Source: a virus
Length of the DNA: 32,436 nucleotides
Strand: one strand, 5' to 3'
Virus record (IMG/VR): IMGVR_UViG_3300031576_000459
Coordinates: 1 to 32,436 of that record
Numbering within the stretch: the stretch's first letter is position 1; each line of letters begins with the position of its first letter. Of the stretch, positions 22-26,461 are shown in pieces. The notes under the pieces were generated by a model. It saw only the letters and a program-made list of their open reading frames with translations, ran no database searches and was not told the DNA's origin. Position numbers and translations under genes: made by a program.

Positions 22-166
22 GGGGCGGCGTAGAACGACCGAGACGGCTGGACAATGGTAAACGCACAACAGGGGCCGAGACACAGTAAGATACGGTTGG
101 TCAGTTGAAACCTACAGTCAGTGCGTACTCGGTAACGGCGGGTGCGATTCCCGCCCCGCTCCATCA
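22..166 (+). ncRNA. tRNA-like structure 1 with alanine-type acceptor
   Basis: Pairing read directly: 22-28 (GGGGCGG) with 156-162 (CCGCTCC) gives seven pairs, the third being G24-U160, equivalent to G3-U70. The discriminator is A163, followed by TCA instead of CCA. A T-type hairpin pairs 137-142 with 150-155 around the seven-base loop TGCGATT. Between acceptor and T arm, long-range helices can form: 38-43 (ACCGAG) with 128-133 (CTCGGT) and 62-67 (ACGCAC) with 121-126 (GTGCGT). I find no D stem and no seven-base anticodon loop, so this is not a normal tRNA. G3-U70 with A73 is the known identity signal for alanyl-tRNA synthetase and is shared by tRNA-Ala and tmRNA. The element is homologous at its ends to the next one (both TGTGGGG at the 5' side and CTCCAYCAAAT at the 3' side). 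Function is unknown; a tmRNA-like RNA, an aminoacylatable decoy or a decayed tRNA are all possible. Confidence 0.45.
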
Positions 167-171
167 AATGT

Positions 172-273
172 GGGGGCGTCAGGTATGCCTTCGGGATGAG
201 CAGCACACCGTTAGTATTAAGTCAGGAGCGTCATGCCGAAGGGATGTGAGTTCAATTCTCACCGCCTCCACCA
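172..273 (+). ncRNA. tRNA-like structure 2, alanine-type acceptor, encoded CCA
   Basis: 172-178 (GGGGGCG) pairs with 263-269 (CGCCTCC) in seven pairs, again with a G3-U70 equivalent (G174-U267). A270 is the discriminator and CCA is encoded at 271-273. The T arm is canonical: 246-250 with 258-262, loop TTCAATT. The part that should hold D, anticodon and variable arms instead folds as one long imperfect helix: 185-199 with 231-245, including the seven-pair core CCTTCGG (188-194)/CCGAAGG (236-242) and ATGA/TCAT, capped by a loop of about 31 bases. The linker 179-184 holds a GG that could contact the T loop. At 102 bases it is too long for an ordinary class I or II tRNA and has no anticodon arm. 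The architecture resembles the tRNA-like domain of tmRNA, but no tag reading frame is evident. Confidence 0.5.
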
Positions 274-2890: not shown

Positions 2891-3238
2891 ATGGTCACGC
2901 GACAACAAGCCTTCAAACAGGCGCTCACGGAATCCCCGCAAGTCCGCACCACATCCGCGTTCGAGATCGACCCTGAGACCCAACTGAGTCTCCCGAAGGG
3001 GACGGTCAAGGGACTCCGGACGCAATGCAAGCACGAGAACGCCGATCGCAAACGCGGCGGCTACGGATACCGCTGCAAGGATTGTGGAGCGAAAGACCTG
3101 CTCCTTGTTGCTGTGGCGTCGGTATTTATGACCCCGAAGGAGGTGCAGGCGTGGCTGGTGTATCAGAAGAAGTCGAAGAACGCAAAGGAAGTGGCAGCGA
3201 AACAGCCGCGGCGCTCGCGGGACGCTTCGACATCGTAG
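2891..3238 (+). CDS. zinc-ribbon protein (115 aa)
   Basis: The central region, about residues 47-68, has C-x-H...YRCKDCGAK, a zinc ribbon with one Cys-His and one CxxC pair. The N-terminal 45 residues are polar and the C-terminus is basic (KKSKNAKE..., QPRRSRD), which suits nucleic-acid binding. ATG 2891 has only a weak upstream purine stretch. Its last 88 bases also encode the N-terminus of the ERCC4-like nuclease in another frame, and the ribosome binding site of that gene (AAGGAGGT, 3137-3144) is read here as Lys-Glu-Val. Function unknown. Confidence 0.7.
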   Translation: MVTRQQAFKQALTESPQVRTTSAFEIDPETQLSLPKGTVKGLRTQCKHENADRKRGGYGYRCKDCGAKDLLLVAVASVFMTPKEVQAWLVYQKKSKNAKEVAAKQPRRSRDASTS

Positions 3239-3714
3239 GGCGGAATGAACGACAACGAAAAACGAAAACAATCCGAATCGACGCAAACGAGCAAGACCGC
3301 CTCGTTGACACTCTCCTTAAGGGAATGGGCTATGTTGTCGAGCGCCACCGCTATCCAGTTGGAGACTATGGGTGGGATTTACAAGCAGGGAGTTTTCTAC
3401 GAGAGAGACTTGGCGCGGAAGCTGTTATCATTGAACGAAAAAGTCTATCAGACATACGCGACACTGCGCGACTCATTCGACAACTCGAATCCATGACCGA
3501 CCCGAAAGTGTATTACATGCTGTTGATGGATCACACACAAGACACGGACGGACATCGTGCCTGGGGTGATGACGCGCTGATGAACGCGGAGTTGTCGGTT
3601 CAGCTTGGCGGGATCGCGGTGACACACTGCCTCGGAGGGCATGTGGCGAGTCGGATTGATAGCCTGTGGCGGTGGAGTCAAAAGGCGACGCACAGTTTGA
3701 CACCGGATTATTAG
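3151..3714 (+). CDS. ERCC4-type nuclease
   Basis: A 187-residue protein with the motifs of the ERCC4/XPF nuclease fold. Counting from GTG 3151: IRIDANEQ with Asp44 and Glu47, GDY at 71-73, and IIERKSLSDIRD with the catalytic ERK at 95-97 and Asp101. Such enzymes cut branched or flapped DNA, and phage versions accompany recombination genes. The start is set by a perfect AAGGAGGT at 3137-3144, six bases before GTG 3151. No later ATG, GTG or TTG exists in this frame before the first catalytic motif. The first 30 or so residues therefore come from an overlap with the upstream zinc-ribbon gene and are low-complexity (Glu, Gly, Ser, Ala). Family is clear from motifs; the exact substrate is inference. 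Confidence 0.8.
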   Translation: MAGVSEEVEERKGSGSETAAALAGRFDIVGRNERQRKTKTIRIDANEQDRLVDTLLKGMGYVVERHRYPVGDYGWDLQAGSFLRERLGAEAVIIERKSLSDIRDTARLIRQLESMTDPKVYYMLLMDHTQDTDGHRAWGDDALMNAELSVQLGGIAVTHCLGGHVASRIDSLWRWSQKATHSLTPDY

Positions 3715-4307: not shown

Positions 4308-4738
4308 AAATCTACCTGATCGGATCGTTGCGGAATCCCGAAGTCCCAAAGATCGGGAATGAACTTAGGGCTGAAGGGTACATTATCTACGACGATTGGT
4401 TTGCCGCCGGTGAATTCGCGGATGATGCTTGGCGCGACTATGAGCGGGGACGCGGCCATACGCTACCAGAAGCATTGAAAGGTCTAGCTGCTGAACATAT
4501 GTTTAATTTCGATCTTGCTCTTATCAAAGAAGCACAAGTGGGTGTGCTAGTGTTGCCTGCCGGACGGTCAGGACATATCGAATTGGGTTACATGGCAGGA
4601 GAAGGAAAGGGCACATTCGTTCTGCTGGAGGGTGATCCCGACCGCTATGACCTGATGTATCGCTTATTCACTGCCGTTTGCAAGACGAAGCAAGAGTTAC
4701 TAAACGCGTTAAGAGAATATGCTAATGCCTATTCTTAG
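4304..4738 (+). CDS. nucleoside 2-deoxyribosyltransferase-like protein
   Basis: The 144-residue product opens with LKIYLIGSLRNP and continues with a DDW motif, FNFDLALIKEA and LVLPAGRSGHIELGYMAG. This is the fold of the nucleoside 2-deoxyribosyltransferase superfamily, where the glutamate in HIELG is placed like the catalytic nucleophile and the N-terminal strand binds the substrate. Such enzymes exchange or remove bases of deoxynucleosides. The start is TTG 4304, eight bases after GGAGAAG (4289-4295); earlier in-frame starts would overlap two other genes. It overlaps the IMP dehydrogenase-like gene by 14 bases, so the two products are made together. Substrate is not predictable from sequence. 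Confidence 0.72.
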   Translation: MKIYLIGSLRNPEVPKIGNELRAEGYIIYDDWFAAGEFADDAWRDYERGRGHTLPEALKGLAAEHMFNFDLALIKEAQVGVLVLPAGRSGHIELGYMAGEGKGTFVLLEGDPDRYDLMYRLFTAVCKTKQELLNALREYANAYS

Positions 4739-5720
4739 GGCATTAACCTTCGACGATGTTCTTCTGGTGCCTAACTATGGGAACGAGAGTCGCGACGATG
4801 GAGATGTCAGCGCCGCGCTAGGCCGCTACAAGTATTCAATTCCAGTTATCTCCGCTAACATGGATTCAATCACGGGGCCAAAAATGGCAGCGGCAATGAC
4901 TGACGCGGGCGGCTTAGGCATTCTGCATCGCTTTATGACCGTTGATGAGAATGTCCTAGCATTCAGGCAAACGGCAGGATTCACAATCAGCACAGATGAA
5001 GTTGGCGTCTCAATTGGGGTGGGCGAGAAAGAACAGGAACGTGCTGAGGCTCTTTATAGTGCAGGCGCACAGCTATTCTGCATAGACATAGCCCATGCCC
5101 ATAGCAAACAGATGGGGAAGATGATAAAGTGGTTAAGGACAGAATATAAGGATGTCTACATCATCGCAGGGAACGTAGCTACCTACTCTGGTGCTGACTA
5201 TCTTGTGAGTTGTGGTGCAGATGCAGTGAAAGTAGGTATCGGTGCGGGGTCAGTTTGCACTACCCGTGAGGTTACAGGTTTCGGGGTGCCACAGTTGACT
5301 GCGATCATGGATTGTGCTAGAATAGATAAACCGATCATCGCTGATGGCGGAATGAGGACATCGGGGGATATTGTCAAGGCGCTGGCGGCAGGGGCAACGA
5401 TGGTGATGCTCGGCGGGATGCTCGCAGGGACAGACGAGTCGTTAGGTGGATGGACATATCGCGGTATGGCGTCTCAAGAGGCACGGCAGGATTACTACAG
5501 ATTTGATACTGGAAGCGGGTATCGTGTCGCAGAGGGCGTTTCTGTAGACGTATTTTCTCGTGGGCCGGTTACTGCTGTGCTTGCCGAGATTGTCGGCGGT
5601 ATTAAATCAGGTCTGTCCTATGCTGGTGCGAAGAACCTGGACGATCTCCGCCGAAAAGCGCAGTTTATCGAGATAACACCGGCTACCGAAAGAGAGGGAC
5701 GCCCTCATGCCATTAGATAA
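4725..5720 (+). CDS. IMP dehydrogenase / GMP reductase family enzyme
   Basis: A 331-residue TIM-barrel enzyme with [10 protein letters not shown] near the N-terminus, a catalytic loop [20 protein letters not shown] with Cys178, the phosphate-binding [10 protein letters not shown] at 207-216, and a C-terminal YRGMAS...[12 protein letters not shown] region. The two CBS domains of typical bacterial IMP dehydrogenase are absent and the length is that of GMP reductase (about 345). The N-terminus looks more like IMP dehydrogenase, so I cannot decide between IMP oxidation and GMP reduction. ATG 4725 is chosen because AAGAGA at 4711-4716 lies eight bases upstream; ATG 4719 is too close. It sits between a deoxyribosyltransferase-like gene and a deaminase-like gene, a purine/pyrimidine pool cassette. 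Confidence 0.85.
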
Positions 5721-6144
5721 ATGGGATCGACGGTTTCTCGATCTTGCAAAGTTGGTGTCAACATGGAGTAAAGACCCCTCTACACAAACAGGGGCAGTGA
5801 TCGTTGACAAGAATAATCAAGTTGTGTCGGTAGGGTTCAATGGATTCCCGCGGAAGATCGTTGATGATATTCGACTCGATGAGCGTGACGTGAAGTACGA
5901 GATGATCATTCATTGCGAGATGAACGCGGTCTTGTTCGCACTACGACCATTAGACGGATGTACACTTTATACCTACCCGTTTCTCTCGTGTTCGCGCTGT
6001 GCGGCGGCGATGATTCAAGTAGGGATTACGCGAGTCGTCGCGCCAGCACTACCAAGAGATAAGTTACGGTGGGAGGTGAATATGAGGCTCAGTAAAGCAT
6101 TATTCAGCGAGGCTAATGTAGAAGTGGAGGAGATCGATGATTAA
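5707..6144 (+). CDS. dCMP deaminase-like zinc enzyme
   Basis: A 145-residue cytidine/deoxycytidylate deaminase-fold protein. The zinc and proton-shuttle site is HCEMNAV (His69, Glu71) with Cys95 and Cys98 in PFLSCSRCAA; the usual proline before the first cysteine is serine here. STQTGAVIV near residue 25 and GFNGFPRKI are typical of dCMP deaminases, which make dUMP for thymidylate synthesis. Phage versions are common, but no thymidylate synthase is visible in the window. The start overlaps the upstream gene by 14 bases and the end overlaps the next gene by eight. Confidence 0.85.
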   Translation: MPLDKWDRRFLDLAKLVSTWSKDPSTQTGAVIVDKNNQVVSVGFNGFPRKIVDDIRLDERDVKYEMIIHCEMNAVLFALRPLDGCTLYTYPFLSCSRCAAAMIQVGITRVVAPALPRDKLRWEVNMRLSKALFSEANVEVEEIDD

Positions 6145-6331
6145 TTGGATTAAACATGTCGCGCCGTGGAAGTGGAGGCCGGTTTTCCACGCAGGGGCAG
6201 ATTGGTGGTTCTGGCACTTCGGGGTGCAATTCTACATCGATTTGGCACTAGGGTTTCATTTCGATCGGTTTCGCCTCGACTTGGCATTCGGCCCGTTGTG
6301 GCTCCACGTAGGCGTGGAGGCTAATAACTAA
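6137..6331 (+). CDS. aromatic-rich small protein (64 aa)
   Basis: Opens MINWIKHVAPWKWRPVFHAG and contains seven tryptophans, about nine phenylalanines and several histidines in 64 residues. Alternating aromatic and charged residues suggest an amphipathic beta sheet or a membrane-surface peptide rather than a plain transmembrane helix. It overlaps the deaminase by eight bases and its TAA overlaps the next ATG (TAATG). No family recognised. The tryptophan load is notable because the phage carries its own tRNA-Trp. Confidence 0.6.
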   Translation: MINWIKHVAPWKWRPVFHAGADWWFWHFGVQFYIDLALGFHFDRFRLDLAFGPLWLHVGVEANN

Positions 6332-13306: not shown

Positions 13307-14236
13307 CTACAGAGTCGCCGTGTCAGTGTCGAATTGCACGACCCACTGCGGGAACGCACCGACGCGGAATCCGTAGTCGCAATGTGCCCGCATGATGATC
13401 CCGATCCACGAATCTTCCTCGAAGAACTTCAAATCCCAATCCTTTGAGATGCCAAGATGAATCGCGTGCTTCGAGAACATCCCACCGTGGTCAGGAGTTG
13501 TTACGCCCTGAACGGTCGTGTCGATGTATCCTGAACGATACACTGGAATACCGAGAAGGTTTCCCATGTACCCTTCGATACCATACGCGGCAGTCACGAG
13601 GGTCGGGTCTTGGAGGGGTCTAACGAACGTGGTCGAGGCCGCAGCCACACCGATGTCGGTGAGCAAATGGGCCTCTTGAATGGGGTTGATAACGAGAGCG
13701 ATAGGCGTCTTGGCGGGGCCGCCCTGAGAGCGTGCCACGTTGTAAAGCAGTGCCCTCGCATCGCGGACGTGACCAAGGTTCGTGTTGGCACCGGCAGCAC
13801 CGAGGTCAACCGTACCTGTGTCGTTGAGCGTTGAGAGTAGGTCAGCCTCGATTCGCTCTGCCTTCGCCTTTGCGAGTTCTTCGCCTGCCATCGCAGCGAT
13901 GTCCACGGTAGAAAATCGTAGAGCACGGTCAGTGAGGCGAGCAGGGATAACCAACTCAGTTGTGGTCAGATCGATTGTGTCAATCGTGAACCGCTGTGAG
14001 GTCGAAACCTCGTCGCCGTCAGTGTGGGCCTGTACGACGAACGTGCTGTCTTGGAACGGAATCCTGATTCGGTCGCTACCACGGGGGATGTTGTGCTCCG
14101 TGACGAGCAATCGCATCGTGGCGAATTCCAATTCCAGGCTTTCAGCCGTGGCGTACATGATGTCGAATACTTCGCTCAGGTTGGCCTGAGACGAAATCGT
14201 ATCACCTACGACTCCGGCACTAGCTGGAAGCGTCAT
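13307..14236 (-). CDS. major capsid protein
   Basis: A 309-residue protein with a layout typical of HK97-fold coat proteins: a helical N-terminus, an extended stretch rich in charged and aromatic residues (IRIPFQDSTFVVQAHTDGDE), a helical spine (AGEELAKAKAERIEADLLSTL), a central domain with ALVINPIQEAHLLTD and GIPVYRSG, and a C-terminal HCDYGFRVGAFPQWVVQFD. It follows a charged scaffold-like gene and has a strong AAAGGAG site, as expected of the most abundant virion protein. Assignment rests on gene order and overall pattern. Confidence 0.75.
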   Translation of the reverse strand: MTLPASAGVVGDTISSQANLSEVFDIMYATAESLELEFATMRLLVTEHNIPRGSDRIRIPFQDSTFVVQAHTDGDEVSTSQRFTIDTIDLTTTELVIPARLTDRALRFSTVDIAAMAGEELAKAKAERIEADLLSTLNDTGTVDLGAAGANTNLGHVRDARALLYNVARSQGGPAKTPIALVINPIQEAHLLTDIGVAAASTTFVRPLQDPTLVTAAYGIEGYMGNLLGIPVYRSGYIDTTVQGVTTPDHGGMFSKHAIHLGISKDWDLKFFEEDSWIGIIMRAHCDYGFRVGAFPQWVVQFDTDTATL

Positions 14237-24952: not shown

Positions 24953-26461
24953 TTAGCACCATCGAACTTTCTTATTCTTGCGGCGTCGGGGAAGCGGCGG
25001 CAGGTAGGCCCGCGCCCATTGCGCGAGGCCCATTGCGATCACCTGATCGTCGTTGCCGGATTGTGCTTCCCACTTCATCGGGCCTTTTTGAGCAAAGTTG
25101 ATGAATTCCCGCCACATCGGGACATCACGGGAATCGAGGGCATGCGCGTTCACCGACGCAACGAGGTTCCCGACGATACGCCCTTTGATCGTCTGTGTCT
25201 GTGTGATGCCGATGGTCGGCTCTTCGATACGGCGGTCTTCGGGGATCGCGTGCCACGGTTGGAAGCGATAGAAGTTCGCATAGCCGAATCCTTGCAGGGC
25301 TGCGATCATGCCTGCGCCCGCGCCGTTACGCTCGACACAGAGGTACGGGTTGTACTGTTGAAGGAGGTTGTATATCTCCATCGACGCTTCGGTTAGCTCC
25401 ATCCGGCCATCCCAGGACGCGACGTGGCGATTGTTCATATCGATGATCTTGAGGGATGTGCGGTCGGCATTGCCTTTTTGGGACACACCCTGGGCGCAGT
25501 CGAGGCCCGCGGCGTACCGCTTGCCCGCTTCGGGGCCGATGAATATGCGTGTCCGGCCATCATTGGTCATCTGCGTCGCAGCGGGCATCCCATCGACCTT
25601 TTTGATGTGGTTGAGAATCCAATCGACATCAAAGGGACAGGTGCCGGACTTGATGAACGCCTCGCGATCGTCGTCGGGGTATTCTTGTTTGAATTGTTCC
25701 TCGGTCAGCGCGTAGTCTGCGCGTTCGCGTTCGAGCCAGGCATCGTTACGGTGCGCCGGAGCGTACCAGCCGATGAAAACCGGCGTGAATGCGGATTCCT
25801 GCATCTTTGCTTTCTCCCACATACTGTGAAAAAGATTCCCGATGCCATTGCCCGTCGAGATGATGATGCAAGAGCCTAGACCTTCGAGCGTGGGGTAGAT
25901 TCCAGCCCAATTCTTCTCTGCGGCTTGGTGGAAGGCGTGTTCATCGAGGATAACACAAGTCGCTGCACGTCCACGACCGCCTGCTTCTGTGGATGCAAGG
26001 CAAGTAATACTGTTGCCATTAGACAGCACGAAGCGAAAAGACTGGTCTGTAATCGCATCCATACGGATGCCTTCCGGCTGGTGCGCGTTAATGATAGGTA
26101 TCTTCGCGAGGAGAACTTGCGACGCGTCCTCTTTAGACTTCGAAAGAACGACAACATGTTCTCCTCCTGGTTTGCCGAAGCGGATGCGCCAGTATGCGTA
26201 GGACATTGTGAGGGTCGATACCCCGACCTGCCGCGCCTTGAGGATTATGAGTCGCTTCTCGGATTGGAACAGCGATGCGAGGGATTCCTGGAACTTCCAG
26301 ATCGTCTCGTGCATCGGGACGATGCCTTTTTCGCGCACTTCGACAACGGCATAGTGACTTAACCAGAAAGGAAAATCTACCTCACACCGTGCAATCATCG
26401 CTGCGTGACGAAGTTCCGGCGAGAGATCGTTAATTGTTAGGATAGGGGCTTTCGTCGCCAT
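24953..26461 (-). CDS. terL: terminase large subunit
   Basis: A 502-residue packaging motor. The ATPase has a deviant Walker A, LKARQVGVST (about 74-83), Walker B CVILDEHAF (Asp173, Glu174) and coupling motif ISTGNG (201-206). The RNase H-like nuclease has AAGLDCAQG (Asp321), LCVERNG (Glu377) and NDDQVIAMGLA (Asp471/472). It cuts and translocates concatemeric DNA into the prohead through the portal encoded next to it. The first 32 bases overlap the 3' end of the homing endonuclease gene. The leader has only a weak GGGTGAT site, so translation may depend on the upstream gene. Confidence 0.9.
   Translation of the reverse strand: MATKAPILTINDLSPELRHAAMIARCEVDFPFWLSHYAVVEVREKGIVPMHETIWKFQESLASLFQSEKRLIILKARQVGVSTLTMSYAYWRIRFGKPGGEHVVVLSKSKEDASQVLLAKIPIINAHQPEGIRMDAITDQSFRFVLSNGNSITCLASTEAGGRGRAATCVILDEHAFHQAAEKNWAGIYPTLEGLGSCIIISTGNGIGNLFHSMWEKAKMQESAFTPVFIGWYAPAHRNDAWLERERADYALTEEQFKQEYPDDDREAFIKSGTCPFDVDWILNHIKKVDGMPAATQMTNDGRTRIFIGPEAGKRYAAGLDCAQGVSQKGNADRTSLKIIDMNNRHVASWDGRMELTEASMEIYNLLQQYNPYLCVERNGAGAGMIAALQGFGYANFYRFQPWHAIPEDRRIEEPTIGITQTQTIKGRIVGNLVASVNAHALDSRDVPMWREFINFAQKGPMKWEAQSGNDDQVIAMGLAQWARAYLPPLPRRRKNKKVRWC

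Follow-up and report, generated by a model that had tools for sequence, protein, structure and literature searches.

The window analyzed here, that is, the whole stretch of 32,436 bases, is a linear IMG/VR record of a tailed phage. It carries a terminase gene (24953–26461), a match to a major head protein (13307–14236) and exonuclease genes. No phage match was found for the capsid protein, nor were relatives found through the neighboring exonuclease, and the relatives of the terminase (26–29% identity) were too distant to help. The window also contains a full-length gene for an IMP dehydrogenase/GMP reductase (4719–5720; Pfam 9.6e-100) and an ERCC4-type nuclease domain (3025–3714), here in a phage. 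Two tRNA-like elements lie on the plus strand at its start: E1 (22–166, 145 nt) and, starting 5 nt downstream, E2 (172–273, 102 nt). The contig begins 21 nt upstream of E1, and no promoter was found for either element. Directly 3′ of E2 (277–846) are three small ORFs with many CxxC pairs, resembling zinc ribbons; the two that were tested had no match in Pfam.

Structure of the two elements

Both elements have an acceptor with G3-U70 and A73, followed by a stem-less D-loop, a P2 helix, a 3-nt linker and a T arm, and both lack an anticodon arm; this geometry is that of the family alignments presented below. The preliminary description of this DNA had given the same outline. Its coordinates all hold, and a check of the pairs confirmed the perfect 7-bp acceptors, the G3-U70 pairs, A73, the T arms, the long second helices and the missing anticodon arms.

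In E2, the 5′ half of the acceptor (GGGGGCG, 172–178) forms 7/7 pairs with 263–269, G174-U267 being the G3-U70 pair, and the 3′ end (263–273) consists of CGCCTCC, A73 at 270 and an encoded CCA. The stem-less D-loop TCAGGTATG (179–187) is followed by CC (together GGTATGCC) and resembles the loops of Microbacterium phage members of the family. The 5′ strand of P2 (188–199) pairs with the 3′ strand (231–242) at 11/11 positions (188–194 with 236–242, 196–199 with 231–234), and the 7-bp part was reached by 438 of 20000 shuffles. Over the longer helix 185–199/231–245, 13 of 15 positions pair, with G.G at 187/243 and 195/235. The linker GAT (GAN in the family) leads to the T arm GTGAG-TTCAATT-CTCAC (246–262; 5/5 pairs, 246–250/258–262). 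No tag reading frame was found in E2.

The acceptor of E1 (GGGGCGG/CCGCTCC) likewise forms 7/7 pairs, between 22–28 and 156–162, with G24-U160 as G3-U70; its 3′ end (156–166) has A73 at 163 and TCA at 164–166, so CCA is encoded after E2 alone, as described earlier. The D-loop equivalent is the 9-nt CGTAGAACG (29–37). A P2-like helix follows (38–51 with 118–133; 14/14 pairs in segments of 6, 3 and 5 bp with two bulges), then the linker AAC. A 6-bp helix in this place was seen in 495 of 20000 shuffles. The T arm (137–155) has a 6-bp stem (137–142/150–155) and the loop TGCGATT, and owing to this stem the acceptor and T stack measures 13 bp, not 12. Within E1, at 64–108, is a tag-like frame, AQQGPRHSKIRLVS*, with TAAAC just before it, which resembles the resume context of tmRNA. 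The earlier statement that no tag frame is present thus stands for E2, whereas E1 has this one speculative frame.

To ask how often such elements arise by chance, we searched for a 7-bp acceptor, a 5-bp T stem with its T loop, and NYCA within 60–180 nt. This descriptor matched only E1, E2 and a tRNA-Trp in the 32 kb, whereas Markov-shuffled windows gave a mean of 0.003 matches and G3-U70 plus A73 in 0 of 300. Compensatory double changes distinguish E1 from E2 at pairs 5 and 6 of the acceptor and at pairs 50 and 52 of the T stem. The folding energies of the whole elements were mildly low (z −1.4 and −1.9). The two ends had been called homologous and the elements diverged duplicates. We found a weak likeness, with a local score of 12 where shuffled sequences average 8.3 (12 of 500 shuffles reach 12), and most of it is common tRNA constraint; origin by duplication is possible but, given such weak end similarity, unproven.

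Standard tools did not recognize the pair. ARAGORN, run with default settings, with introns to 3000 nt and with relaxed thresholds, returned no credible tRNA or tmRNA at E1 or E2 and did not call E1 as a tRNA. Rfam placed neither element above threshold and gave no tRNA match; tmRNA proper (RF00023, RF04321) scored 10.3 and 17.3 bits against a gathering cut-off of 47, and the pseudoknots of tmRNA proper were not found in either element. A single tmRNA over 1–273 (Rfam 10.3 bits; ARAGORN only at relaxed ps60, tag AETQ*) was rejected because each half is self-closing. A permuted tmRNA composed of the E1 T arm and the E2 5′ half was rejected because the acceptors fail to pair.

A phage family of message-less tmRNA tRNA-like domains

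We assembled a family of phage tmRNA tRNA-like domains (TLDs) of 74–135 nt that have no mRNA domain. A first set of IMG/VR pattern scans required an acceptor with G3-U70 built in and a T arm, with a middle region that exceeds the length allowed by a tRNA but falls short of a tmRNA. These scans yielded many RNAs of 74–135 nt that lack a message but have a P2 helix and either the tmRNA D-loop GGTTTCGAC or a variant of it; 3′ ends of E. coli ssrA, which matched through a chance GGGGTTG, were removed. In a second scan of IMG/VR, the D-loop and T-loop were fixed and the acceptor was left free.

G3-U70 is the signal for alanyl-tRNA synthetase. Among 65 distinct, well-paired candidates from the acceptor-free scan, 62 had G3-U70 and 63 had A73, whereas pairs 5 and 6 were of four or more types. 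Two of the three candidates without G3-U70 look like ordinary tRNAs beside a chance D-loop match. In alignment A3, the invariance of G3-U70 is partly a product of the search, some rows having come from G3-U70 patterns, but the count of 62/65 is free of that. The near fixation of the G-U pair is most simply read as the result of selection.

The shared structure is well supported. RNAalifold on 20 sequences recovered the acceptor, the P2 helix and the T stem, and 15 of the 19 pairs showed compensatory changes. In the alignment of 72 sequences, 71 of which come from viral contigs and one from an isolate, 96.2% of cells were paired, and the covariation score was 0.76 versus 0.16 when shuffled and about 0.1 when slid; the isolate-phage set gave 0.57 versus 0.15. 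Rfam called 13 of 14 canonical members as tmRNA (RF00023, 50–81 bits), and these span model positions 1–374 with only 80–89 nt, the mRNA domain being absent. ARAGORN tmRNAs with implausible tags overlap TLD-only RNAs at L274, L302, L323 and L389 and are likely mis-calls.

BLAST with family members located the element in 14 cultured phages of Microbacterium (Franklin22, Vitas, Armstrong, Eden, Dismas, Kieran), Streptomyces (BRock, LuckySocke, Alone3, Tomas, Riptide, pSt2308), Stenotrophomonas (virus Jojan60) and Pontimonas (phage phiPsal1). These elements mostly adjoin tRNA genes, and an RNA annotation of the element is missing in every isolate record examined. Pair 3-70 is always G-U in the isolates, whereas pair 4-69 has four types. 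In Jojan60, the 3′ part of an annotated hypothetical protein (L354:1381–1521) overlaps the TLD-only RNA. The element of Stenotrophomonas phage QDWS359 (L407:237–531) proved to be a permuted tmRNA (RF04321, 108.7 bits) and was left out of the isolate count; cyanophage S-CRM01 (L357, about 1501–1560) has an apparent permuted tmRNA.

A strict pattern matched 52 IMG/VR loci, whereas prokaryote genomes totaling 257 Gb contained a single match, located on a Clostridia MAG contig of 228 kb. Therefore, the family is phage-borne and restricted to phages. In 21 of 72 members, a same-strand tRNA gene lies no more than 300 nt away, and a search of the family members gave no convincing tandem pair like E1/E2 elsewhere.

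Further features were noted at several loci. A long-form subfamily of 109–112 nt (L109:1146–1256, L116:889–1000, L064:9859–9967, L095:1671–1782) carries a conserved inner domain, AGCAGCGCAAGCAGGACGATTA..CGCCC, atop P2. A 117-nt G3-U70 element in L107 and L113 contains a second T-arm-like hairpin, GCCGGTTCGATTCCGGTG. The 148.9-kb contig L185 (IMGVR_UViG_3300009149_000012) has several model matches, including a 151-nt G3-U70 element (GGGGTAGGAAGGCATGG...). On the minus strand of L274, a Pistol ribozyme match (6093–6154, 51.9 bits) lies ~100 nt upstream of a same-strand TLD-only RNA.

Placement of E1 and E2

Covariance models were built from 20 sequences (R1), from 72 phage members (R2) and from 15 isolate-phage sequences (R3, alignment A4, which includes L407, the element later recognized as a permuted tmRNA); the window was excluded from training. 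E2 scored 43.1 bits under R1, and no tRNA in the 674 kb searched exceeded 31.7 bits; with Infernal filters off, however, E2 reached only 29.4 bits (E=1e-5). Under R2 it scored 49.2 bits (E=7.8e-10, default filters), the same bits with filters off, and the best tRNA scored 35 bits, below E2. Under R3 it scored 50.5 bits (E=2.7e-10). We concluded that E2 is a divergent member of the phage TLD-only family. E1 was found in the correct register under R2 (20.9 bits, E=0.0035) and R3 (20.8 bits, E=0.0044), a score no better than that of a generic tRNA-like RNA. Its membership is supported by the tandem position, the intact pairing, the P2-like helix in place, the 3-nt linker and a D-loop as long as that of E2 (9 nt), and is weakened by the 13-bp stack, the TGCGATT loop and the TCA end. 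E1 is probably a second, more diverged member.

The canonical D-loop GGUUUCGAC, typical of the family, is missing in both E2 (GGUAUGCC) and E1 (AGAACGACC), and E2 does not have the tmRNA D-loop GGTTTCGAC. We count this loop as typical, not defining, because the GGNNNGCC variant occurs in isolate phages. The loops of Microbacterium phages, for example GGTTTGCC, GGAATGCC and GGTTCGCC, are of the E2 type, which is common only to these phages and, loosely, to a few contigs. The E1 loop fits the RGWWYG of E2-type members in a post hoc comparison with L395, L398, L400 and L401. A pattern of GGTATGCC plus the tail had no match, and E1-like patterns gave one match with 7/7 pairing (L383).

Most of the Microbacterium phage elements (90–93 nt) share with E2 the GGNNNGCC-type D-loop, and the elements have the long helical second arm, G3-U70 and A73. 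They differ in having C4-G69 for G4-C69 and in lying beside tRNA genes; outside the shared motifs no sequence identity with E2 was detectable. Rfam did not call them either. Like tmRNA (RF00023), E1 and E2 have an acceptor with G3-U70 and A73, a stem-less D-loop, P2 and a T arm; unlike it, they have neither an established tag frame nor pseudoknots and are only 145 or 102 nt long. The phage T4 species 1 and 2 RNAs (rnaC, rnaD; 139 and 119 nt) are also stable RNAs in tandem, separated by 6 nt and close to tRNAs. In structure, the T arm of rnaC is the sole common feature; rnaC has no GGG/TCC acceptor with G3-U70 and no tmRNA-like D-loop, and we found no homologous sequence or acceptor between E1/E2 and the T4 RNAs. 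The likeness is analogy only.

The closest known system is mycobacteriophage DS6A, for which a TLD-only tmRNA without an mRNA domain is reported in two papers (PMC4131195, PMC11915505). Its entry in The tmRNA Website (‘TLD only’, tmID 11587) is, like E2, a phage-borne TLD without an mRNA domain; E2 differs in its longer P2 arm, its GGTATGCC D-loop and the tandem arrangement. According to PMC4131195, tmRNA is strongly inhibited by a similar molecule whether or not it can be charged, perhaps through titration of SmpB, and PMC11915505 describes inhibition of endogenous tmRNA in E. coli by such a molecule. Among the readings offered in the preliminary description, a tmRNA-like RNA or decoy charged with alanine agrees with the high scores of E2 in a family where G3-U70 and A73 are almost invariant. 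Neither of the outcomes named there as refuting came about: ARAGORN reported no tRNA, and homologues keep both the acceptor and G3-U70. An RNA of a new class does not fit, as a CDS-less phage tmRNA had been published and a similar molecule inhibits tmRNA, according to these papers.

Proposed role and competing explanations

We think it fairly probable that E2 is a phage CDS-less tmRNA, with E1 probably a second, acting as an alanylatable tmRNA-SmpB decoy made during infection. E2 would correspond to the tRNA-like domain of a tmRNA, made up of acceptor, stem-less D-loop, P2, T arm and CCA, in which the P2 arm is lengthened and the mRNA-like domain is missing. The transcript would be matured by RNase P and 3′ processing, charged with alanine by the host AlaRS via G3-U70 and A73, and bound by EF-Tu and by SmpB, which would fill the place of the missing anticodon arm. 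It may then compete with host tmRNA for SmpB and stalled ribosomes. Having no tag template, it would leave trans-translation unfinished, and the decoy would damp host ribosome rescue during infection. A decoy is therefore the simplest account of E2, given the DS6A precedent and the inhibition of tmRNA described in those papers.

That published inhibition was independent of alanylation and hence does not explain the strict alanine signal. The conservation pattern suggests that charging matters in nature, and an action on the ribosome itself is conceivable. One alternative, which we consider unlikely, is that the alanylated RNA enters stalled ribosomes with SmpB and takes over the nascent peptide, giving rescue or turnover without a tag. 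Pure SmpB titration would not need charging, whereas the near-invariant G3-U70 and A73 imply that charging matters, and a similar role has been suggested for the tag-less mitochondrial tmRNAs, thought to help handle incomplete mRNAs (PMC11915505). Against it, there is no template leading to a stop codon, and the sole functional report on such a molecule is of inhibition (PMC4131195).

The remaining explanations concern what the elements are. Because degenerate genes are frequent in phage tRNA clusters, and because E1 has a TCA end, a 13-bp stack and an unusual T loop, E1 and E2 might be decaying, functionless remnants of deleted tmRNA or tRNA genes; the intact acceptor, T and P2 pairs, the compensatory nature of the E1/E2 differences and the strong covariation across the family make this improbable. 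A reading of E1 as a whole tmRNA in miniature, short tag frame included, with E2 as its tag-less partner, is very improbable. U-A-N-N-C precedes tmRNA resume codons, and the five bases before GCA in the candidate frame (TAAAC-GCA at 59–66, stop at 106–108) fit it, but this match is short and post hoc, pseudoknots are absent, the tag end is not ALAA-like, and the tmRNA mode of ARAGORN gives nothing credible. An attachment site, with the phage carrying a copy of the host ssrA 3′ end, comes to mind in that tmRNA genes are common integration sites (PMC11915505) and many pattern matches were prophage ssrA ends. We give this hardly any credence, as both elements contain, within 102–145 nt, P2 and a matching 5′ acceptor half of their own, and the larger ORFs scanned in the window had no match to integrase families. 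A tRNA with an intron or a long variable arm would account for the tRNA-like acceptor and T arm, yet ARAGORN offered only poor models even with introns to 3000 nt and relaxed settings, and the Rfam tRNA model had no match; we regard this reading as exceedingly improbable.

The decoy reading also has a broader form, which we put forward tentatively, as a possibility and not an expectation: phages may widely encode alanine-charged, message-less tmRNA mimics that either poison trans-translation at the A site or rescue ribosomes without tagging. If true, these mimics would form a functional class of their own among phage RNAs, including a GGNNNGCC D-loop subclass missed by standard tools, and tandem pairs may divide labor. 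The general kind is already known, from one published phage example in the searchable literature, DS6A. As far as we could find, three things are new: how widely the family occurs (in 71 uncultured viral contigs and 14 cultured phages), the D-loop subclass that standard tools overlook, and the tandem arrangement.

Nearly all bacteria use trans-translation. If many unrelated phages carry a decoy tmRNA, it would serve as a general means of countering ribosome rescue, or of reusing it. Since G3-U70 is nearly fixed, a need for alanylation is sharply predicted and can be tested in cultured phage-host pairs.
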